DNA from: Rhodanobacter sp. Root480
GTDB taxonomy: Bacteria; Pseudomonadota; Gammaproteobacteria; Xanthomonadales; Rhodanobacteraceae
Direction of reading: 5' to 3'
Assembly (NCBI RefSeq): GCF_001426645.1
Contig: NZ_LMEX01000003.1
Span: 35,449 to 99,448 of the forward strand
DNA: 64,000 nucleotides
The position numbers were made by a program, and so were the translations under genes. Below the pieces are notes generated by a model. It made no database searches. It worked only from the letters and a program-made list of their open reading frames with translations, and was not told the origin of the DNA. Positions 1 through 13,838 of this stretch are shown here, piece by piece; within the stretch, counting starts at the first letter, position 1; every line of letters begins with the position of its first letter.

Positions 1-282
1 GCCCGCCTCCTTCGCGGCGCGGGCGCGCTGCAGCACCTCGTCGATCTCCAGCAGTTTCTGCGCCTGCACGCCGGTGTCGTAGCGCGCCGCCTGCGGGCAG
101 TAGGCGCAGTCCTCAGGGCAGCCGCCGGTCTTGATCGACAACAGGGTCGACACCTGTACCGCGTTCGGGTCGTGGTGTTCGCGGTGCACGGCGTGCGAAC
201 GGAACAACAGGTCGTTGAACGGCAGGGCGAACAGTGCGACGACCTCGTCGCGGGTCCAGTCGTGACGGACGGCAGCAGGCAT
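1..282 (-). CDS. bioB: Biotin synthase, N-terminal part (cut by window edge)
   Basis: Radical-SAM enzyme that inserts sulfur into dethiobiotin, the last step of biotin synthesis in the cytoplasm. Only the first 94 codons lie in the window; the gene continues past base 1. The radical-SAM cluster motif CxxxCxxC is present at Cys55, Cys59 and Cys62 (context [12 protein letters not shown]), as in BioB. The start is the ATG ending at 282 and gives the usual N-terminus (RHDWTRDEV followed by [18 protein letters not shown]). A BirA-like inverted repeat lies 49-82 nt upstream (331-364). In many Xanthomonadales bioB is next to comF; here a nitrite reductase-like gene lies between them. Identity is near certain. 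Confidence 0.97.
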
Positions 283-381: not shown

Positions 382-2364
382 CTATTTAACGGCGTCGCGT
401 ACCGCCTTGACCTGTTCGGCAGTGACCTGCTTGGCCTGGTTGCCCCACGAAATGCGCTCGTGGTTCGCGATGTCGGCGATGTCCGCGTCGTTGAGGCTGG
501 CGGCGAACGGCGGCATCGCGCTGGGATAGCTGACGCCATCGATGGCCTCGCCATGCAGGCCGTGCAGGATCACGTCGAGCTGCTTGGTCGGATCCGCGTT
601 CAGCACGGCAGGGTTGCCCTTGAGTGGCGGAAACGCGCCGGGCAGGCCCAGACCGGTGGGCTGGTGGCAGGCCGCGCAATACGTGCCATAGAGCTGCGCG
701 CCGTGGGCCGGATCGAACGTGTACGGCCCGGTGGCCGCCGGCGGCGGCGCGGCGTTCTCATCCACCGGTGCCTTGGTGATTTGCGGCTTGGCCAGCGCCT
801 CGCCCGGCGTGGCGATCTCCAGGATGCCCTGCGCGCCCAGCACGGCGTGCGCCATCGAGTGATCCACGAACGGATAGTGGCCCGCCTCGTCCAGGGTGAG
901 GTCGAACACCGCGCCCTCGCCCGGCCCCACCGTGTAGGTGGAGACGCCGTCGATGGCCTGCGCCGGGTTGCCACCGGGGTAAACCTTGTCGAAGATCGCG
1001 CCGATCACGTGGAACGCGCTCCACAGGCTCGGCCCGGCGTTGACCACGTACAGGCGCACCAGATCGCCCGGCTTGGCGGTCAATGGATGCTGCACGTACT
1101 GGAAGGCGGCGCCGTTGAACACCACTTCGTCGGGGCGGATCTGCTGCATCTTCTCGTAGTTGCCCGCCATCAGCGTGCCGGACACCTGCTGCGTGTACCA
1201 CTCGCCCTGCACCAGCACGTAGCTTTCGGCCGCCGGCGGCAGCGGCTCGGCCGGGTCGACGATGATCGCGCCATACATGCCGTTGCCGATGTGCAGCAAT
1301 ACCGGCGGCGTACCGCAGTGGTAGAGGAAGGCGCCCGGCACCTTGGCCACGAACGAGAAGGTGATCGACTCGCCCGGCATGATGTCCACGTAATGCAGGC
1401 TCGGTGGCGTGATTGCCGAATGGAAGTCGATCGAGTGCTGCATGGTGCCGCGGTTGGTGAGGGTGACGTTCACCGTCTGCCCCTGGCGCACATGGATCAC
1501 CGGGCCGGGTACGGTCTTGCCGAACGTCCAGGCCTGGTATTGCACACCGCTGGCGATCTCCACGGTGTCGTCGCTGGAGGTGATCTGCACGTCCACGCTG
1601 TCGCCCGGTTGCAGTGGCGGCAGGCGTGCATCACGCGCCTGCTTGATCGGCTGGGTGGAAGCCAGCGACAGCGGCGTCACCGCGGCGGCGGCGGCGGCGG
1701 GGCTGGCGCTGCGCACGTTCAACGCGCTGTGCAGACCGGCCAGCAGCAGCGCCACCAGCAGCAGCACGCCAGCCAGCGCCGGACCCTGCACGCGCCAGGA
1801 CAGGTGCTGCACCTGCTCCAGCGGTACACGGCTGTTCCATTCGGAAAACCGGCGCCAGCTCGGCCAGCGGCTCTCGATCAGGTAGTCGACGCTGTATGGA
1901 CTGGGGCCGGCGCGCAGGTTGATCACGATCAGGGCGGCGAAAATCAGCACGAAGCTGATCGCTGCGCCGATGTTGTTGGCGCCCACCGAATACGGCCCGC
2001 CGAAGCCCTCGGCCGTACTCCAGATCAGCAGGCTGAAAAGAATGCCCACGACATAGGTGATCTTGCGCGCGAAGCCCAGCAGCAAGGCCAGCGCCAGCAA
2101 GGTCTCGGCGATCCGCGTGGCCCATACGAACAGGCCCACGTTCGGTGTCACCAGGGCGATCCACATCTGGAACCACCACGCCGACCACGCCGGCTGTCCG
2201 GTGGCGGCATTGTGCAGGTAGCCCACGTAGTGATCGGCAAAACCATCGGTCCAGGTCAGCGCGGCGCTTACCGCCCAGATCACGCCGAAGGCTACGCGCA
2301 GCGCGGTGCCGGCGAGTGTCGGCCAGGTCGATGGAGCGGCTTGGTTGTCGTGCGACGAGATCAT
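382..2364 (-). CDS. Membrane-anchored copper nitrite reductase-like protein with C-terminal cytochrome c domain
   Basis: 660 aa with three parts. Residues 1-155 hold about four hydrophobic helices resembling DoxX/DoxD proteins; a further helix lies near 193-215. Residues about 230-540 form two cupredoxin domains of the NirK/AniA type. Type 1 copper ligands are His310, Cys350, His358 and Met363; type 2 ligands are His315, His349 and His502; the catalytic His is His452 in an FHVIG motif followed by FDKVY, as in AniA. Residues about 550-660 are a cytochrome c with Cys563-x-x-Cys566-His567 and a likely Met ligand in SAMPPF. The predicted activity is reduction of nitrite to NO at the periplasmic face with an in-built electron donor. 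A strong ribosome site (AGGAGG) precedes the ATG. All copper ligands are present, so it is probably active; the role of the DoxX-like part is unknown. Confidence 0.85.
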   Translation of the reverse strand: MISSHDNQAAPSTWPTLAGTALRVAFGVIWAVSAALTWTDGFADHYVGYLHNAATGQPAWSAWWFQMWIALVTPNVGLFVWATRIAETLLALALLLGFARKITYVVGILFSLLIWSTAEGFGGPYSVGANNIGAAISFVLIFAALIVINLRAGPSPYSVDYLIESRWPSWRRFSEWNSRVPLEQVQHLSWRVQGPALAGVLLLVALLLAGLHSALNVRSASPAAAAAAVTPLSLASTQPIKQARDARLPPLQPGDSVDVQITSSDDTVEIASGVQYQAWTFGKTVPGPVIHVRQGQTVNVTLTNRGTMQHSIDFHSAITPPSLHYVDIMPGESITFSFVAKVPGAFLYHCGTPPVLLHIGNGMYGAIIVDPAEPLPPAAESYVLVQGEWYTQQVSGTLMAGNYEKMQQIRPDEVVFNGAAFQYVQHPLTAKPGDLVRLYVVNAGPSLWSAFHVIGAIFDKVYPGGNPAQAIDGVSTYTVGPGEGAVFDLTLDEAGHYPFVDHSMAHAVLGAQGILEIATPGEALAKPQITKAPVDENAAPPPAATGPYTFDPAHGAQLYGTYCAACHQPTGLGLPGAFPPLKGNPAVLNADPTKQLDVILHGLHGEAIDGVSYPSAMPPFAASLNDADIADIANHERISWGNQAKQVTAEQVKAVRDAVK

Positions 2365-2501: not shown

Positions 2502-3215
2502 ATGGACACGACCCATCGCCAGCGATCCTGGCCGGTGCTGCTGCACTGGCTGTTGCCACTGCGCTGCCTGCTGTGCGGGGGCGCGGGCGCGCACGGCATG
2601 GACTTGTGTGCCGACTGCAGCGACGAACTGCCGCGCAACCGGAGCTGTTGCGCCCGCTGCGCCCTGCCGCTGGCCGCGCCCGCCGCGCTGTGCGGCGAAT
2701 GCCAGCGGCGGTCGCCACCATGGGATGCCGCGTGGGCGCCGTTCCGCTACGGCTGGCCGTTGAACCGGCTGGAATCACGCTTCAAATTCGGCGCCGACCT
2801 GGCTGCCGGCCGCGTGCTGTCCAGCCTGTGGCAGCGCGAAAGCCGCCCCATGGCATTGCCCCGGCAGATCCTGACCGTGCCGCTGCACCGCAGCCGCCTG
2901 CGCCAGCGCGGCTACAACCAGGTGCTGGAACTGGCACGGCCGCTGGCGCGCGAACTGCGCCTGTCGCTATGCGTCGATGCGATCCAGCGCGTGCGCCGCA
3001 CCGAGGCGCAGACCGAGCTCGATGCGGTAGCTCGCCGACGCAACGTGCGTGGCGCCTTCGCGTTGCGCGAGGGCGTGGCGCTGGCGCCGCACGTGGCGGT
3101 GATCGACGACGTGATGACCACCGGCGCCACCCTGGCCGAATGCGCCCGTGTGCTGAAACGTGCAGGCGTGCAGAGGGTCGACGTGTGGGCGCTGGCGCGG
3201 GCCGGCAACCGGTAG
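2502..3215 (+). CDS. comF: ComF family phosphoribosyltransferase-like protein
   Basis: 237 aa. The N-terminus has two cysteine clusters (Cys22/25/36/39 and Cys49/50/53/64/67) that look like zinc ribbons. The C-terminal half is a type I phosphoribosyltransferase fold with the PRPP-binding loop VIDDVMTTGAT at about 200-210. ComF proteins are needed for DNA uptake in competent bacteria; their catalytic activity is not settled. The start is the ATG that puts the first CxxC at residue 22, and the length is normal for the family. The TAG stop lies inside the left arm of the inverted repeat that begins at 3212. It is divergent from the nitrite reductase-like gene and convergent with ubiA. Confidence 0.93.
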   Translation: MDTTHRQRSWPVLLHWLLPLRCLLCGGAGAHGMDLCADCSDELPRNRSCCARCALPLAAPAALCGECQRRSPPWDAAWAPFRYGWPLNRLESRFKFGADLAAGRVLSSLWQRESRPMALPRQILTVPLHRSRLRQRGYNQVLELARPLARELRLSLCVDAIQRVRRTEAQTELDAVARRRNVRGAFALREGVALAPHVAVIDDVMTTGATLAECARVLKRAGVQRVDVWALARAGNR

Positions 3216-5764: not shown

Positions 5765-7357
5765 TCAGCCCTGCAGCAACAGCCGATAGGCGCTGTGGTC
5801 GCTCTCGTTGCGATACGGATAGCCCAGCGTTTCGAGGAAGCGCTGGAACAGTTCGCGTTCGTCCGGCGGCACCTGGATGCCGACCAGGATGCGGCCGTAA
5901 TCGGCGCCCTGGTTGCGGTAGTGGAACAGGCTGATGTTCCAGTCCGGGTGCATGTGGCCCAGGAAGCGGGTCAGCGCGCCGGGGCGCTCGGGGAATTCGA
6001 AACGGTACAGCTGCTCGTCCTGCGCCAGTGGCGAGCGGCCGCCCACCATGTGGCGCAGATGCAACTTGGCCAACTCGTCGTCGGTGAGGTCGAGCACACC
6101 GAAATCCTGCGCGTGGAAGGCGGCGATCAAGGCCTCGCGTTCGTTCCGGCCGGTGGTCTGCACGCCCACGAAGATGTGCGCCAGCCGGGTGTCGCCGACG
6201 CGGTAGTTGAACTCGGTGATGCTGCGATCGCCCAGCGTGGCGCAGAAACGGCGGAAGCTGCCGCGTTGCTCGGGTACGGTCACCGCGAACACGGCCTCGT
6301 GCTGCTCACCGACTTCGGCGCGCTCGGCCACGAAGCGCAGCTGATCGAAATTCATGTTGGCGCCGGAGACGATCGCCACCAGCGCGCCCTCGCTCTCCTC
6401 GCCCGCGGCCTTCTGGTCGGTGATGTATTGCTTGAGACCGGCCAGCGCCAGCGCGCCAGCGGGTTCGGGAACGCTGCGGGTTTCCTGGAACACGTCGCGG
6501 ATGGCGGCGCAGATCGCATCGGTATCGACCCGCAGCATGGCGTCAACGTGACGCTTGCACAGGGCATAGGTGCGTACGCCGACCTGCTTCACTGCGGTGC
6601 CATCGGAAAACAGGCCCACTTCGTCCAGCGTCACCCGTTCGCCGGTTTCCAGCGAGCGGGCCATCGCATCGGAGTCGGCCGCCTGCACGCCGATGACCTT
6701 GACCTCCGGGCGCAGCGACTTGATGCAGGCGGCCACGCCGGCCAGCAGGCCGCCGCCGCCCACCGGCACGAACACCGCATCCAACGGGCCTGGGTGCTGG
6801 CGCAGGATCTCCAGGCCGATGGTGGCCTGGCCGGCGATCACGTCCGGGTCGTCGAACGGGTGCACCACGGTGTAGCTGTGGGCGTACTGCAGGCGCAGCG
6901 CCTCGGCCTGGGCCTCGCTGTACGAGTTGCCGCACAACACCACTTCGACGGAACTGCCGCCGATGCGGCGCACGGCATCCAGCTTGACCTTCGGTACCGT
7001 CACCGGCATCACGATGACCGCGTGGATGCCCAGCTTCGCCGCCGCCAGCGCCACGCCCTGGGCATGGTTGCCGGCGGACGCGGCGATCACGCCGCAGGCA
7101 CGCTGGGGCGGGTCGAGGCGGCTCATCTTGTTGTAGGCGCCGCGCAGCTTGAACGAAAAGACCGGTTGCTGATCCTCGCGCTTCAACGCCACCGACCGGC
7201 CGTAGCGGGTCGACAACAGCGGTGCCGGCTGCAACGCCGTCTCGCGCGCCACGTCGTAGACGCGCGCGGCGTACATGCGCCGCAGCAACTCCTCGTCGGA
7301 CAACGAGGGCACCCCGTCCGGTTGCACCGGCGCCTTGCTGGTGACGGCATTCATCAT
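5765..7357 (-). CDS. ilvA: Threonine ammonia-lyase, biosynthetic
   Basis: 530-aa PLP enzyme that deaminates threonine to 2-oxobutanoate, the committed step to isoleucine. The PLP lysine is Lys70 in SFKLRGAYN, and the glycine-rich phosphate loop VGGGGLLAG is present. The last 190 residues carry two ACT-like regulatory domains (ending about SLFHYRNQG), which in the biosynthetic form bind isoleucine. It is the last gene of the leu-ilv operon. Its ATG overlaps the TGA of ilvM (TGATG), indicating translational coupling; a second Met follows at once and could be the start. In Xanthomonas genomes this gene is sometimes labelled tdcB, but the regulatory tail supports the biosynthetic role. Confidence 0.96.
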   Translation of the reverse strand: MMNAVTSKAPVQPDGVPSLSDEELLRRMYAARVYDVARETALQPAPLLSTRYGRSVALKREDQQPVFSFKLRGAYNKMSRLDPPQRACGVIAASAGNHAQGVALAAAKLGIHAVIVMPVTVPKVKLDAVRRIGGSSVEVVLCGNSYSEAQAEALRLQYAHSYTVVHPFDDPDVIAGQATIGLEILRQHPGPLDAVFVPVGGGGLLAGVAACIKSLRPEVKVIGVQAADSDAMARSLETGERVTLDEVGLFSDGTAVKQVGVRTYALCKRHVDAMLRVDTDAICAAIRDVFQETRSVPEPAGALALAGLKQYITDQKAAGEESEGALVAIVSGANMNFDQLRFVAERAEVGEQHEAVFAVTVPEQRGSFRRFCATLGDRSITEFNYRVGDTRLAHIFVGVQTTGRNEREALIAAFHAQDFGVLDLTDDELAKLHLRHMVGGRSPLAQDEQLYRFEFPERPGALTRFLGHMHPDWNISLFHYRNQGADYGRILVGIQVPPDERELFQRFLETLGYPYRNESDHSAYRLLLQG

Positions 7358-7611
7358 CAGTCCGCCGTTGCCTGGTGGCTGACTTCAAGCACGTCGATCA
7401 GCTTGCGCGTCTGGCGCACGATCTGCACCACGGCCTGGTCGTCGCCGCGGATGCTGAGCACCAGCTTCGAGATGGCGGGGTCGGCGGTGGCGGCCACGTT
7501 GAGCGAGTCGATGTTGTAGCTGCGCGAGGCGAACAGCCCGGCCACGCGCACCAGCGCGCCGGTTTCGTTCTGCAGCATGATGGTAAGCGTGTGTTGCGTG
7601 ACGGCGTTCAT
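7357..7611 (-). CDS. ilvM: Acetolactate synthase small (regulatory) subunit, short IlvM-type
   Basis: 84 aa, a single ACT domain (TLTIMLQNETGALVRVAGLF, then SYNIDSLNVA), close to the length of E. coli IlvM and half that of IlvH. It should bind the IlvG large subunit and confer or modulate branched-chain amino acid inhibition. The reading frame is open further upstream but would run into ilvG. ATG codons at 7617 and 7611 are possible; 7611 has a GAGCGG site at better spacing. It follows ilvG by about 10 nt and overlaps ilvA by 1 nt. Confidence 0.93.
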   Translation of the reverse strand: MNAVTQHTLTIMLQNETGALVRVAGLFASRSYNIDSLNVAATADPAISKLVLSIRGDDQAVVQIVRQTRKLIDVLEVSHQATAD

Positions 7612-7621
7612 GGGCATCCGC

Positions 7622-9487
7622 TCAAAACATGTCGTTGCGTAGGGTTTCGTCGCCGGCGGCGCGCTGCCGCGAGGCGATGAAATCACCGGTGATCATCTGG
7701 GCGTACGACATGCCCGGGCCCACCATCGGGTAGACGCCGGCGTCCGGATCGATCATCACTTCCAGGAAGGCAGGGCCCTCGAACGCCAGGAACTCGGCGA
7801 TGGTGTCGGCCAGTTCCTCCTTGCGCTCCAGCCGGCGCGCCCAGGTGAAGCCGTCGGCCTGCACGGCCTTGATGAAATCCTTGGTGTGCAGGCTCTTGTC
7901 GGAGGAGGCGAAGCGGCCCTTGAAGAACAGCTTCTGCCACTGCCGCACCATGCCGTCGCCGCGGTTGTTGAGCAGCACGATCTTCACCGGCAGGCCATAC
8001 GTGGTGACGGTTTCCAGCTCGCCCAGGTTCATGCGGATGCTGCCGTCGCCATCGATGTCGATGACGGTGGCATCGCGCCGCGCAAACTGCGCGCCGATGG
8101 CCGCGGGCAGGCCGAAACCCATCGTGCCCATCGAGCCGGAGCTGAGCCAGTGGCGTGGCGCGCGGTAATCGAAATACTGCGCCGCCCACATCTGGTGCTG
8201 GCCCACGCCCGTGCTGATGATCGCGTGGCCGTCGGTGATGCGGTTGATCGCCTCGATCACCGCGTACGGCTGGATCAGCTCGCTGTCGTGGTCGTAGTTC
8301 AGCGCGTGCACGCGCTTGAGCTCGGCGATATGCGCGTGCCAGGCGGCGTAGCGGCCGTCCTGCCGCGGGTGGATACCGTGCGCCGCGCCGTACTCGCGCA
8401 GGCGCTCGAGCGTGCGTCGCAGGTCGCCGATGTGGTGCCAGTCCACCGCCTTGACCTTGCCGATCTCGGCCGGATCGATGTCCACCTGGGCGATGAATTT
8501 CGCGCGGGGAGCGAACTTGTCCGGCACGCCGGCCACGCGGTCGTCGAAGCGCGCGCCCAGGGTCAGCACGAAGTCGCAATCCTCCACCGCGTAGTTGGCG
8601 TAGGCGGTGCCGTGCATGCCCAGGAAATGCAGCGCCAGCGGATCGGTGGTGTCGAACGCGCCCAGCCCCATCAGCGTGGTGGTGACCGGCAGGCCGAAAT
8701 CGGCCACGAAATCACGCAGGGCCTCGGCGGCGCCGGAGGCGATCACGCCGCCGCCGGCGTAGATCAACGGACGCCTGGCCTGGGCCAGCGCGTCGAAGAA
8801 GCTGGCGCAACCGGCATCGTCCAGCTGGGCCGACTGCACGTTGCGCAGGCGCGCGCGGTAGCCGGGAATGGGCAGCTGGCCCTGGCCGGCAAAGGTCAGC
8901 GCGGTGTTCTGCACATCCTTGGGTACGTCCACCACCACCGGCCCCGGCCGCCCGCTGCGGGCGATCTCGAACGCGGTACGCAAGGTGGCTTCCAGCACGC
9001 TGGCATCGGTCACCAGGAACACGTGCTTCGCGCAGGCGCCCATGATCGTGCTGACCGGCGCTTCCTGGAACGCGTCGCTGCCGATGGCGGCCACGCCGAC
9101 CTGGCCGCAGATCACCACCATGGGGATCGAGTCGGCCATCGAGTCACGCACCGGGGTGACCATGTTGGTGGCGCCGGGGCCGGAGGTGACCACGGCCACG
9201 CCGACCTTGCCGGAGGCGCGCGCATAGCCGGCGGCCATGAAGCCCGCGCCCTGCTCGTTGGCCGGCACGATCAGCGGCAACGGCTCGCTGCCGTCGTCGT
9301 TCGGATGGGTGGCGTTGTACCGGAATACGGCGTCGTAGACCGGCAGGATGGCGCCGCCGGAATAGCCGAACATCACGTCGACGCCTTCGTCCGCCAATAC
9401 CTGCACGATGACCTCGGCGCCGCTCATCGACTTCGCCGCCAGCGGGTGCAGGTCGCCGGCGGGAGCCGGGGTGGACTTGGTGTTCAT
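7622..9487 (-). CDS. ilvG: Acetolactate synthase large (catalytic) subunit
   Basis: About 621-aa thiamine-diphosphate enzyme joining two pyruvates, or pyruvate and 2-oxobutanoate, in valine, leucine and isoleucine synthesis. The catalytic Glu is Glu78 in PANEQGAGF. The ThDP motif begins GDGSIRMN and ends about 30 residues later with VLLNN. FAD-type central and C-terminal domains are complete. The start is uncertain: ATG 9487 gives a family-like N-terminus (MNTKSTPAP), while GTG 9502 and ATG 9523 are in frame, and an AAGGA lies about 11 nt before the GTG. The gene is followed directly by ilvM. The symbol ilvG is used because of the ilvM partner. Confidence 0.95.
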   Translation of the reverse strand: MNTKSTPAPAGDLHPLAAKSMSGAEVIVQVLADEGVDVMFGYSGGAILPVYDAVFRYNATHPNDDGSEPLPLIVPANEQGAGFMAAGYARASGKVGVAVVTSGPGATNMVTPVRDSMADSIPMVVICGQVGVAAIGSDAFQEAPVSTIMGACAKHVFLVTDASVLEATLRTAFEIARSGRPGPVVVDVPKDVQNTALTFAGQGQLPIPGYRARLRNVQSAQLDDAGCASFFDALAQARRPLIYAGGGVIASGAAEALRDFVADFGLPVTTTLMGLGAFDTTDPLALHFLGMHGTAYANYAVEDCDFVLTLGARFDDRVAGVPDKFAPRAKFIAQVDIDPAEIGKVKAVDWHHIGDLRRTLERLREYGAAHGIHPRQDGRYAAWHAHIAELKRVHALNYDHDSELIQPYAVIEAINRITDGHAIISTGVGQHQMWAAQYFDYRAPRHWLSSGSMGTMGFGLPAAIGAQFARRDATVIDIDGDGSIRMNLGELETVTTYGLPVKIVLLNNRGDGMVRQWQKLFFKGRFASSDKSLHTKDFIKAVQADGFTWARRLERKEELADTIAEFLAFEGPAFLEVMIDPDAGVYPMVGPGMSYAQMITGDFIASRQRAAGDETLRNDMF

Positions 9488-9594
9488 CAGTTGTGCATTC
9501 ACGATGTTGCGGTTCCTTGGCATGGCCGGCAGCCGCCGGGTGCTTGGACGCGATGCGGTGGCGGTGCGGCGCACCGGTCACCCCAACGTTTGTG

Positions 9595-9942
9595 TCATGA
9601 GTGGGAGGTCGATTCCCGTGGTGGTCGTCCTGACCTGACCGGAACGCCATAGGTCTCGGCGATCTTCAGATCCTGTTCCTGCGCGCAGAAGCTTTCCCAT
9701 ACCAGGCCATTGACGTCGGAGGTGCTGGAAAATCCTTCGGCGAGGTCGTCCTCGAAGCCGATGTGGCGCAACTGGCCCGCGCGCTCCGGCATCTGGTTGA
9801 TGGAGAAGTTCAGCAGGTCGGTACGCCACATCGCGTACTTGCCGGCGACGACGGCGCTCGGCTGGGCATCCAGTCGCTGGCTGTAGTCGTCGATCGACTC
9901 GGCCAGGTCGCGAACCGCCAGCGCAATGTGAAAACGTTTCAC
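9595..9942 (-). CDS. VOC (glyoxalase-fold) family protein inside the ilv operon
   Basis: 115 aa. The N-terminal FHIALAVRDLAESIDDYSQRL is a typical VOC-superfamily half (beta strand, then helix). A His appears at RHIGFE and an acidic residue in GLVWESF, matching metal-ligand positions of the fold. The start is a GTG with GGGGA 8 nt upstream; the longer open frame would enter ilvC. It sits between ilvC and ilvG on the same strand. The substrate is unknown. Its position suggests a role in branched-chain metabolism, for example a reactive intermediate, but nothing in the sequence shows this. Confidence 0.8.
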   Translation of the reverse strand: MKRFHIALAVRDLAESIDDYSQRLDAQPSAVVAGKYAMWRTDLLNFSINQMPERAGQLRHIGFEDDLAEGFSSTSDVNGLVWESFCAQEQDLKIAETYGVPVRSGRPPRESTSHS

Positions 9943-10007
9943 GTCGTGTCCCCGATGGAAAAACGTTGCCGCTCCGTTCCCCGGCGAACCGGGGAACGGG
10001 ACGTCGA

Positions 10008-10997
10008 TCAGCCTGCCTGCTTCGCCGTTTCCGGCTGCAGCCACGGCATGCGGGCGCGCAGCTTGGCACCCACCACCTCGACCGGATGCTCGAGATCGGC
10101 CTGCTTGAACTTCTTGTAGTTCGGCAGGCCGGCTTCGTACTCGGCGATCCAGTTGCGCGCGAAGGTGCCGTTCTGGATGTCGGTCAGCACATCCTTCATG
10201 CGCGCCTTGACGCCGGCGTCGATCACGCGCGGGCCGCTGACGTAGTCGCCGTACTGGGCGGTCTCGGAGACGAACTGCAGCATCTTGGTGATGCCGCCTT
10301 CGTAGAACAGGTCCACGATCAGCTTCAGTTCGTGCAGCACTTCGTAGTAGGCGATTTCCGGCTGGTAGCCCGCTTCCACCAGGGTCTCGAAGCCGGCCTG
10401 CACCAGCGACGAGGCGCCGCCGCACAGCACGGCCTGCTCGCCGAACAGATCGGTCTCGGTCTCTTCCTTGAAGTCGGTCTTGATCAGCATGGCGCGGCCG
10501 CCACCGATGCCGTTGGCATAGGCATGCGCCTTGGCCTCGGCCTGGCCGGACACGTCCTGGTACACCGCCCAGATGCTGGGCACGCCGCGGCCGCGCTCAT
10601 ACTCGGTGCGCACCAGCGCGCCGGGGCCCTTGGGGGCCACCAGGATCACGTCGATGTCCTTGCGCGGGTCGATCCGCTTGAAGTGCACGTTGAAGCCGTG
10701 CGCGAACAGCAGCGCCGCGCCGGGCTTGATGTTCGGCTCGATGCTCTGCGTATAGACGTCTGCCTGCACCATGTCGGGCGTCAGCACCGCGACCAGGTCG
10801 GCACCCTTCACCGCCTCGCCCGGCTCGGCCACCTTGAAGCCTTCGGCACTGGCCTTCTCCCAGGACGGGCCGCCCTTGCGCAGGCCGACGACGACGTCGA
10901 GGCCGGAGTCGCGCAAGTTGAGGGCGTGGGCGCGGCCCTGGCTGCCGTAGCCGAGAACGGCGATGCGGGCATTGCCCAGGGTGTCGTTGTTGCTCAT
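10008..10997 (-). CDS. ilvC: Ketol-acid reductoisomerase (class I)
   Basis: 329-aa NADPH-dependent enzyme converting acetolactate or acetohydroxybutyrate to the dihydroxy acids. The Rossmann motif [10 protein letters not shown] is near residue 16, and the C-terminal knotted helical domain contains the metal ligands in [10 protein letters not shown] and the [14 protein letters not shown] segment. The length is that of the short class I form. The ATG overlaps the ilvD stop by 4 nt (ATGA), so translation is coupled. Confidence 0.97.
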
Positions 10998-12715
10998 GCG
11001 GTAACTCCTGCTTTGGTTGGTTTGTTTGTGTGGGCGGGCGTCTGCACCGCCGTATCGGGATGGGTGTTGGCGCCGTCGGAGGCGGAACCAACCAGCCGCG
11101 CGTACTTGGCCAGCACGCCGCGGGTGACTTTGGGCTCGGGCGGCTGCCAGCTGGCGCGGCGGCCGTCGAGGTCGGCATCGGTGACCAGCTCGCGGGTGTT
11201 GGCATCGATGCGCAGGTGGTCGCCGTCACGCAGCAGCGCGATCGGGCCGCCACGCGCCGCTTCCGGCGCCACGTGGCCCACCATGAAACCGTGGGTGGCG
11301 CCGGAGAACCGGCCGTCGGTGATCAGCGCCACGTCATCGCCCAGGCCGCGGCCGATCAGCGCGGCGGTGACGCCCAGCATCTCGCGCATGCCGGGGCCGC
11401 CGGCGGGGCCTTCGTTGCGGATCACCACCACGTCGCCCTTGCCGATGCGTCCTTCCTGCACGGCGGTGAAGGCCGCTTCCTCGCTCTCGAACACGCGGGC
11501 GGTGCCTTCGAAATGAGTGGCGCCATGGCCGGCGCTGTTCTTGCCGGGGATCTTCAGGATGCAGCCTTCCGGCGCGACATTGCCGTAGAGGATGGAATAG
11601 CCGCCGCGCGGCTTGATCGGTGCGCTGACCGGGAACACCACCTGCTGGTCCTCGAAACGCGGCGCCTCGGCGGCTTCGGCAAACAGTGTGCGACCGGTGA
11701 CGGTGGGCGCGTCCTGCAGCATGCCGGCGGCGATCAGCTCCTGCGCCACGCGGGCAATGCCGCCGGCGTCGAACAGCTCGACCGCGGTGTACTGGCCGCC
11801 TGGCAGCAGGTCGGAGATCACCGGGGTGTTCTCCGAAGCGGGCTGGAAGTCCTCCAGCGTCCACGGCACGCCGGCCTCGCGGGCGATCGCCAGCAGATGC
11901 AGCACGGCATTGGTGGAGCCGGCGGTGGCGGCGACCATGCGTGCGGCGTTGCTCAGCGCGGTGCGGTTGAACATCGAGCTGGGGCGGCGATCCTCGCGCA
12001 GGCATTCCATCACCAGCTCACCGCAGCGCTGCGCGGCGGCGAGTTTGTCGGGATGCGTGGCGGGGATGTCGTTCAGGCCCATCGGCGACAAGCCCAGCGT
12101 GGTCAGCACCATCGCCATGGTGTTGGCGGTGAACTGGCCGCCGCAGGCACCGGCGCCGCCGCAGGCATCGCATTCCACCGAGCGCAGCTCGGCATCGTCG
12201 ATCTTGCCCGCGCCATGCGCGCCGACCGCCTCGAACACCTGCTGGATGGTGATCGGGCGGTTCTTGTGCAGGCCATGCGCGATGGTGCCGCCGTACAGCG
12301 CCACCGCCGGGATATCCAGCCGCGCCATCGCCATCGCGGCGGCGGGGATGGTCTTGTCGCAACCGCACAGCACCACCATGGCGTCGCACAGGTGGCCCTC
12401 GACCGCCGCCTCGATGGAGTCGGTGATGACCTCGCGGCTCACCAGCGAATAGCGCATGCCGGCCGTGCCCATGGCGATGCCGTCGGTAACCGCGATGGTG
12501 TTGAACTCCACCGGCGTGCCGCCCGCCGCGCGGATGCCCTTGGCGACTTCCGCAGCCAGATCGCGCAGGTTGAGGTTGCACGGGCTGACGTCGGACCAGG
12601 TGTGCACCACCGCGATCAGCGGCTTCTTGATCGCGTCGTCATCCATGCCGGTGGCGCGCAACATGGCACGGGCGGGAGCGCGATCGGCGCCGGTCTTGAT
12701 TGCATCACTACGCAT
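10994..12715 (-). CDS. ilvD: Dihydroxy-acid dehydratase
   Basis: 573-aa iron-sulfur enzyme dehydrating the dihydroxy acids to the branched 2-oxo acids. Three conserved cluster cysteines are visible: Cys46 (SPCNLN), Cys119 (CGCDKT) and Cys191 (GACGGQ). The C-terminal half carries the [15 protein letters not shown] motif. I start at the ATG that gives [21 protein letters not shown]; the frame is open further upstream but that part reads into leuB. It follows leuB with a 37-nt gap, the largest in the first seven genes. Confidence 0.97.
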
Positions 12716-12752
12716 GGCGGTTCCAGTAGGACATGGGGAAGGGGGCGTCCGG

Positions 12753-13838
12753 TCAGCCGGCCGAGCGCAGGGAAGGGGCGGCGCTGGCGTAGCCGTCCAG
12801 GGCCTGCAGCACCGCGTCCAGCACGTCCTGCGTGCCGGCCTGGCCGCCAATGTCGCGGCTGTGCGGGCCGTCGCTCAGCACGCGGTCGATGGCGGCTTCG
12901 ATCGCCACGGCTTCGGCTTCCAGCTGCAGCGAGTGGCGCAGCAGCAGGGCGGCGGAGAGGATGGTGCCGACCGGGTTGGCCACGCCCTTGCCGGCGATGT
13001 CCGGGGCCGAGCCGTGGATCGGCTCGTAGAGGCCTACGCGGCTTTCGCCCAGCGACGCCGACGGCAGCAGGCCCAGCGAGCCGGCCAGCGCGGCGGCCTC
13101 GTCGGTGAGGATGTCGCCGAACAGGTTTTCGGTGACCACCACGTCGTAGCGCGACGGCTGGCTCAGCAGCAGCATCGCCATCGAATCGACCAACTGGTGC
13201 TCGACCTTCACGTCCGGGAATTCGGTGGCGATGCGCTGCACCGTGCTGCGCCACAGGCGCGAGGTTTCCAGCACGTTGGCCTTGTCCACCGAGGTGAGCT
13301 GCTTGCGGCGGCCGCGTGCCAGCGCGAGGGCGCGGCGGGCCACGCGTTCCACTTCGGCCACGGTGTATTTGCATTCGTCGGTGGCGGTGTCGTCGGTGCG
13401 GGTCTTGGCACCGAAATAGGCGCCGCCGGTGAGTTCGCGCACGAACAGCACGTCCACACCCTGCAGGCGCTCATTCTTCAGCGGCGACAGGTCGGCCAGC
13501 GCCGGATGCACCTGCAGCGGGCGCAGGTTGGCGTACACGCCCAGCGCGGCGCGCAGGCCCAGCAAGCCCTGCTCGGGGCGCACCGGCGCGTTCGGATCGG
13601 ACCATTTCGGCCCGCCCACGGCGCCCAGCAGCACCGCGTCGGCCTGCTTGCAGGCGGCCAGCGTGGCGGCGGGCAGCGGCTCGCCGGTGGCGTCGATGGC
13701 GCAGCCGCCGATCAGCTGTTCGTCGAAGGTGAACTCGTGGCCGTAGTGGCCAGCCACGGCTTGCAGCACGGCGACAGCCGCGGCGGTGACTTCCGGACCC
13801 ACGCCGTCGCCGGGCAGAGTGACGATGCGTGCCTTCAT
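12753..13838 (-). CDS. leuB: 3-isopropylmalate dehydrogenase
   Basis: 361-aa NAD-dependent oxidative decarboxylase of leucine synthesis. The opening [13 protein letters not shown], the active-site [13 protein letters not shown] motif and the NAD-binding [17 protein letters not shown] are all present. The length is normal. The ATG overlaps the leuD stop by 4 nt. Confidence 0.97.

Follow-up and report, generated by a model that had tools for sequence, protein, structure and literature searches.

A gene of Rhodanobacter sp. Root480 encodes a single chain of 660 amino acids (aa) in which a DoxX-type membrane part is joined to a copper nitrite reductase of the NirK type and to a cytochrome c domain. 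It lies on the minus strand at 382..2364 of a 64,000-nucleotide stretch (contig NZ_LMEX01000003.1, positions 35,449 to 99,448), here called the window, and its reading frame from ATG to stop occupies exactly these positions. This DoxX-NirK fusion is real, occurs in several phyla and is unevenly labelled in databases; what appears to be new is the DoxX-type membrane part on a NirK. That the protein is a membrane NirK we consider highly probable. As to how it works, we propose a membrane-integral copper nitrite reductase forming nitric oxide (NO), in which the DoxX bundle would be the entry point for quinol, and we put the probability of this whole mechanism at about 40%.

Three parts in one chain

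Read from its N-terminus, the protein consists of a four-helix bundle of the DoxX type (residues 14-152, 1909..2325), a fifth helix (residues 190-215, 1720..1797) that is predicted to span the membrane and leads into the periplasmic core, a two-cupredoxin NirK core (residues 256-517, 814..1599) and a cytochrome c domain with one heme site (residues 550-656, 397..717), all on the minus strand. In the Pfam search of the 660-aa protein, Cu-oxidase_3, Cu-oxidase_2, Cu-oxidase, Cytochrome_CBB3 and Cytochrom_C all passed the cut-off, the multicopper domains spanning residues 266-444 and the cytochrome c domain residues 552-634. As the 120 homologues listed of 3310 found are similar in length (643-679 aa) and align over 97-100% of the protein, a chance reading frame is excluded; a PHROGs search gave no match. 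A first-pass annotation made from the letters alone had read the gene as a three-part fusion, and the Pfam domains, the full-length homologues and the single frame bear this out. Of the domain families that it named, Pfam returned Cu-oxidase and cytochrome c and not DoxX when searched directly. The fifth helix, joining the bundle to the core, and a second, classical NirK in the genome are additions to that description.

The copper core is complete, as had been claimed, including the catalytic His452. Ligands H310, C350, H358 and M363, ligands H315, H349 and H502, and the catalytic residues AspCAT (D313) and HisCAT (H452) are the same in all 26 sequences aligned, that of the window included; the role of each residue is the one we take it to have from alignment to solved enzymes and from general knowledge of the family. 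The best matches in the PDB are heme-tethered copper nitrite reductases (E 2.2e-73, covering residues 257-656), and the name nitrite reductase is carried by 34 of the first 36 rows (as far as E 1.7e-39), the exceptions being 4kns (multicopper oxidase type 1) and 1kbv (PAN 1), the latter of which is AniA. Against TIGR02376, the NCBI equivalog model for NirK, the protein scores 191.2 bits and misses the cut-off of 296.3; six relatives score 174-205, and the classical NirK of the same genome passes with 377.2 bits. Judged by its sequence, the fusion protein falls outside TIGR02376 as drawn and is a divergent NirK-type enzyme, which is predicted to be a trimer with a periplasmic core and NO as its product. 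The heme c domain foreseen at the C-terminus is evident from the Pfam cytochrome c matches and from its CxxCH motif (residues 563-567, 664..678, minus strand), which all 19 aligned sequences having the domain retain, as they do a GPY immediately ahead of it.

Three-domain NirKs with a C-terminal heme are well studied, and the accessible part of a 2026 paper mentions extensions by a cupredoxin or a cytochrome c at either terminus and is silent on DoxX (PMC13324648). The fusion is like the heme-tethered enzymes of Ralstonia pickettii (RpNiR) and Pseudoalteromonas (PhNiR) in the ligands of the two-cupredoxin core, in AspCAT and HisCAT and in the C-terminal cytochrome c. Unlike them it has an N-terminal DoxX-type membrane part, a heme domain closer to that of an oxidase subunit, and a core-heme linker that cannot be aligned to theirs with certainty, gatekeeper Tyr323 lacking an evident equivalent at its position. 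In the literature reachable to us, which leaves out most subscription journals, no account of a DoxX-NirK fusion was found; in their accessible parts PMC8756737 concerns NirS fusions, not DoxX-NirK, and PMC6704655 is unrelated.

The DoxX nature of the N-terminus, also part of the first-pass reading, becomes apparent through an intermediate. Searched directly against Pfam and NCBIfam, the window protein had no significant DoxX match (PF07681 at E 2.6, 9.2 bits against a gathering score of 23.6). Among 27 N-terminal parts, 7 matched PF07681 with an E of 10 or less, the best at 0.3. The profile A1, built from these 27 parts, finds the protein P0237 at E 6e-59, and P0237 passes the Pfam DoxX cut-off (24.9 against 23.6 bits). 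By this chain sequence comparison supports homology of the N-terminal part to accepted DoxX proteins, although the direct match is insignificant. The structure prediction that had been suggested gave for the membrane part a fold model that has a mean predicted local distance difference test score (pLDDT) of 81 and contains helix 190-215, and for the full-length chain a poor one (mean pLDDT 65, 26 sequences), so that no domain geometry is claimed from it. Against the PDB, Foldseek returned 33 matches with E no higher than 10, of which none reached 0.001; a second look ranked NACHO/TMEM35A first. Four chlorite dismutase rows from a deep N-terminal alignment search of the PDB, all at E above 1, were taken as chance.

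A membrane location had been claimed as well, and the bundle, the fifth helix and the distribution of charge agree with it. With helix limits set by eye from the model, the two cytoplasmic loops have 1.9 and 5.1 K+R per sequence and those on the periplasmic side, likewise two, have 0.65 and 0, a pattern that fits a periplasmic core. Since the N-terminus would lie inside and five helices follow, the copper core should come to lie outside.

DoxX-type parts were also seen in other settings. In P0163 (354 aa) such a part is followed immediately by a cytochrome c domain, the NirK core being absent. Tandem double DoxX-type matches within one frame occur in gammaproteobacteria (L094 1033-1968, L095 994-1971, L096 1420-2406, L097 970-1956 and L098 2-1282) and in two members of the window's genus, G018 and G031; L095, the one tested, has no Pfam match. 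Cupredoxin-like genes adjoin 4 of 12 standalone DoxX-type loci (L069-L080) from the phylum to which the genome of L033, a two-part locus described below, belongs (L070 2079-2792, L071 794-1228, L074 2134-2775 and L075 442-897); the L074 cupredoxin scores below the Pfam cut-off, and the remaining eight loci were judged by eye alone. The raw count of four hints at a DoxX-cupredoxin pairing.

Distribution and descent

The survey of the architecture across genomes, proposed in the first-pass annotation, found the same three-part form in 28 of 51 loci fetched from genome contigs; seven of the others encode DoxX-NirK without heme, and 14 a NirK-like core with nothing that matches the DoxX bundle. 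Of the remaining two, one breaks off within the core and the other is fragmentary. All 28 three-part loci are in records labelled Pseudomonadota or its members, and the seven two-part loci belong to Thermomicrobiota, Verrucomicrobiota and Planctomycetota. Within the window's genus 13 of 45 genomes carry a full-length fusion, 12 of which also hold a separate heme-tethered NirK match (three at contig edges), the thirteenth, G019, having a partial match with an internal stop and nothing fuller; such a match stands alone in at least 21 further genomes. The association of the two NirKs is not clearly above chance, since at least 33 of the 45 genomes, counted by eye, have a match of the classical type. 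Farther afield, the N-terminal profile is matched in eight of 369 genomes sampled from the class, two of them (the window's own and G616, whose frame leaves its piece inside the core) over nearly the whole length, and in 21 of 301 genomes of the phylum of L033's genome. These 21 comprise four genomes with five frames of 521-595 aa, G161 with a 388-aa frame running off its piece, and 16 with frames of 109-265 aa.

A tree was built of 50 cores, 25 from three-part proteins (the window's own and 24 others, the 28 loci less L011, L014, L015 and L030), 10 from two-part proteins and 15 from proteins without DoxX. A branch supported 98/97 separates the DoxX-bearing cores from the rest, and within the DoxX-bearing side the two-part cores are grouped (99/99). 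As regards gain or loss of the heme domain, two changes are required for the three-part rows on this tree, and a single one in 16% of bootstrap trees. Paraburkholderia rows are interspersed among Rhodanobacter rows, which suggests gene transfer. The fusion core stands apart from heme-tethered NirK here too, on a branch distant from the classical copy of its own genome, the end branch of which measures 2.36 and whose exact place is unsure. The spread of DoxX-NirK over several phyla is best explained by a single origin.

Reports of additional nirK genes are of interest in this respect. As far as the sources could be seen, Rhodanobacter FW510-R12 has an extra nirK copy (PMC8809349), and Rhodanobacter and Castellaniella bins hold two copies with 37% and 30% identity (PMC13170337); neither source speaks of a membrane domain there. 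These extra or divergent copies fit a DoxX-NirK beside a classical NirK, which may account for the two weakly similar copies of the bins. Cluster II of a soil survey, in the part available, brings together Rhodanobacter-like and Chthoniobacter-like nirK (PMC7104279); our guess is that these are DoxX-NirKs.

Possible routes of electron entry

The membrane part is conserved nearly like the enzyme that it carries. Identity to the window's protein is 65-96% for the four-helix bundle and 65-97% for the core among the 18 three-part relatives compared, and 50-63% and 62-65% among seven two-part relatives; in the loop and helix after the bundle identity drops to 32-92% over the 25 relatives. Of 78 sequences, 76 keep R23, 73 keep E87 and all keep W115 and Y125, and invariant positions are enriched on the periplasmic side, 18 of 49 in periplasmic loops versus 8 of 56 in cytoplasmic segments (P 0.012). 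As the bundle is conserved almost to the degree of the core, keeps an Arg and a Glu within the membrane and has invariant residues at predicted periplasmic positions, it is probably more than an anchor, and its conserved residues look like a working pocket towards the periplasmic side.

We hypothesize that this pocket serves quinol. As sequence and model support, the bundle and the fifth helix probably hold the NirK core and the heme c domain at the periplasmic face; the bundle would bind quinol near that face and release its electrons singly to heme c, from which they would pass to the type-1 and then the type-2 copper, where nitrite would be reduced to NO. In the forms without heme the electrons would go from the bundle straight to the type-1 copper. 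The result would be a one-chain quinol:nitrite oxidoreductase that bypasses the cytochrome bc1 complex, and it is conceivable, at somewhat under even odds, that it arose once by the joining of DoxX and NirK, spread over phyla and in Pseudomonadota holds a cbb3-type heme c as its internal wire. The potential of ubiquinone is about +100 mV. As the RpNiR centres lie above it (heme +290, type-1 copper +266 and type-2 copper +255 mV in the accessible part of PMC13324648), the path from quinol to nitrite would be downhill.

Quinol entry is favoured, tentatively, because of the conserved pocket, the link of DoxDA to quinone, the two-part forms that lack heme, the P0163 arrangement and the cupredoxin neighbours of standalone DoxX-type genes. 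According to the part of PMC8551704 available, DoxDA, which belongs to the DoxD/DoxX group, acts as a thiosulfate:quinone oxidoreductase. The DoxX-type bundle is common to it and the fusion by kinship. The fusion is joined to a NirK and has no thiosulfate partner subunit, and DoxDA reduces quinone whereas the fusion would oxidize quinol. In its operation it would be comparable to the quinol-dependent nitric oxide reductase (qNOR), a single chain fed by quinol rather than by cytochrome c; the likeness is functional only, since the catalytic domain of qNOR belongs to the unrelated heme-copper oxidase family.

Direct electron input from the membrane or quinone pool, as the first-pass annotation had envisaged it, is thus far a hypothesis, to which several observations are unfavourable. 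The DoxX part has no conserved Cys or His. The heme domain fits feeding by bc1 or a cytochrome equally, its closest likeness (59% identity over 94 residues) being the C-terminal cytochrome of a FixO-cytochrome c fusion protein that adjoins a COX1-type gene in the same genome (L003 1486-2805), a type that usually receives its electrons from cytochromes. The genome also encodes cytochrome b and two azurins, and cytochrome b is found in 4 of 4 fusion-bearing Pseudomonadota genomes searched and in 10 of 14 overall, the four without it all being draft two-part genomes of uncertain completeness, so that its absence there is no argument for quinol feeding. It is just as probable as quinol entry that the DoxX part serves to anchor and orient the trimer, with heme c or the type-1 copper fed by bc1, cytochrome c or azurin, as proposed for other heme-tethered NirKs; membrane-bound heme donors are suggested as feeders of RpNiR in the accessible part of PMC13324648. 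Yet a mere anchor would not require such strict conservation of residues in the membrane and the periplasmic loops, and the two-part forms have DoxX and no heme.

That the DoxX part instead aids maturation, by copper loading or heme attachment of the fused domains, is improbable: one of the 27 N-terminal parts matches the HvfX family of maturation proteins for Cu-binding ribosomally synthesized and post-translationally modified peptides (E 0.0041) and the cupredoxin-like genes at standalone loci would suit copper handling as well, but the match is weak and limited to that one member, and conserved Cys or His residues that could hold copper are absent from the DoxX part. Least credible is another two-cupredoxin oxidase that is not a nitrite reductase, for which the low TIGR02376 scores and the public names of some homologues, reading only 'multicopper oxidase domain-containing protein', might speak, against the full set of NirK ligands and catalytic residues, the names of the first PDB rows, and the NnrS or globin genes adjoining three of seven two-part relatives.

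The usual view of NirK is of an enzyme in the periplasm that receives its electrons from azurin or cytochrome c. A 2025 community model of Rhodanobacter, reported to dominate acid, nitrate-rich groundwater, assigns azurin to a NirK predicted to be periplasmic, as given in the available part of PMC12146267. If the enzyme is membrane-integral and possibly fed by quinol, the energetics of nitrite respiration assumed for Rhodanobacter would change, with bc1 bypassed, and the poorly understood DoxX family would gain a role in electron transfer as a reusable adaptor linking quinone to copper or heme proteins of the periplasm.

Genome and flanking genes

The second NirK of the genome, a classical heme-tethered one (C2:266040-267422, L057 6005-7597), is 36% identical to the fusion over 423 residues and lies near FGE-sulfatase-domain, SCO1 and NnrS genes. 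NosZ and two qNOR-type proteins with NorB cytochrome-c-like and COX1 domains are also encoded; NarG was not found in the genome, and Nap was not searched for. By this inventory of NosZ, two qNOR-type proteins and two NirKs, with NarG not found, the organism seems to denitrify from nitrite and not from nitrate.

About 100 bases downstream of the fusion gene is the start of a bioB-type gene (1..282, minus strand, continuing outside the window; BATS and Radical_SAM, L056 9242-10282), in which one residue is unreadable (X) owing to an ambiguous base in the assembly. On the other side a divergent comF-type gene (2502..3215, plus strand; DZR_2 and Pribosyltran by Pfam) follows, and no FNR-like box (TTGAT-N4-ATCAA, up to 2 mismatches) lies between it and the fusion gene. 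At least one of these flanks stands beside the fusion in 10 of the 28 three-part loci, their identity there being taken from the window's own genes. In six other three-part loci (L013, L016, L017, L018, L022 and L024), two neighbours on each side, viewed by eye, included no recognised denitrification gene. Neighbours of the two-part loci, picked by eye for Pfam, are NnrS on the same strand (L034), an NnrS/DUF1858 protein (L035), a globin (L032), an NDH-2-type dehydrogenase (L033) and an AIF/ferredoxin-reductase-type protein (L031). An NO-linked neighbour is thus present at three of seven, with none recognised in L036 and L038. Farther along the window, at 5765-12850, the minus-strand frames 5765-7357, 7357-7686, 7622-9574, 10008-10997 and 10994-12850 look by eye like an ordinary branched-chain amino acid (ilv) cluster.
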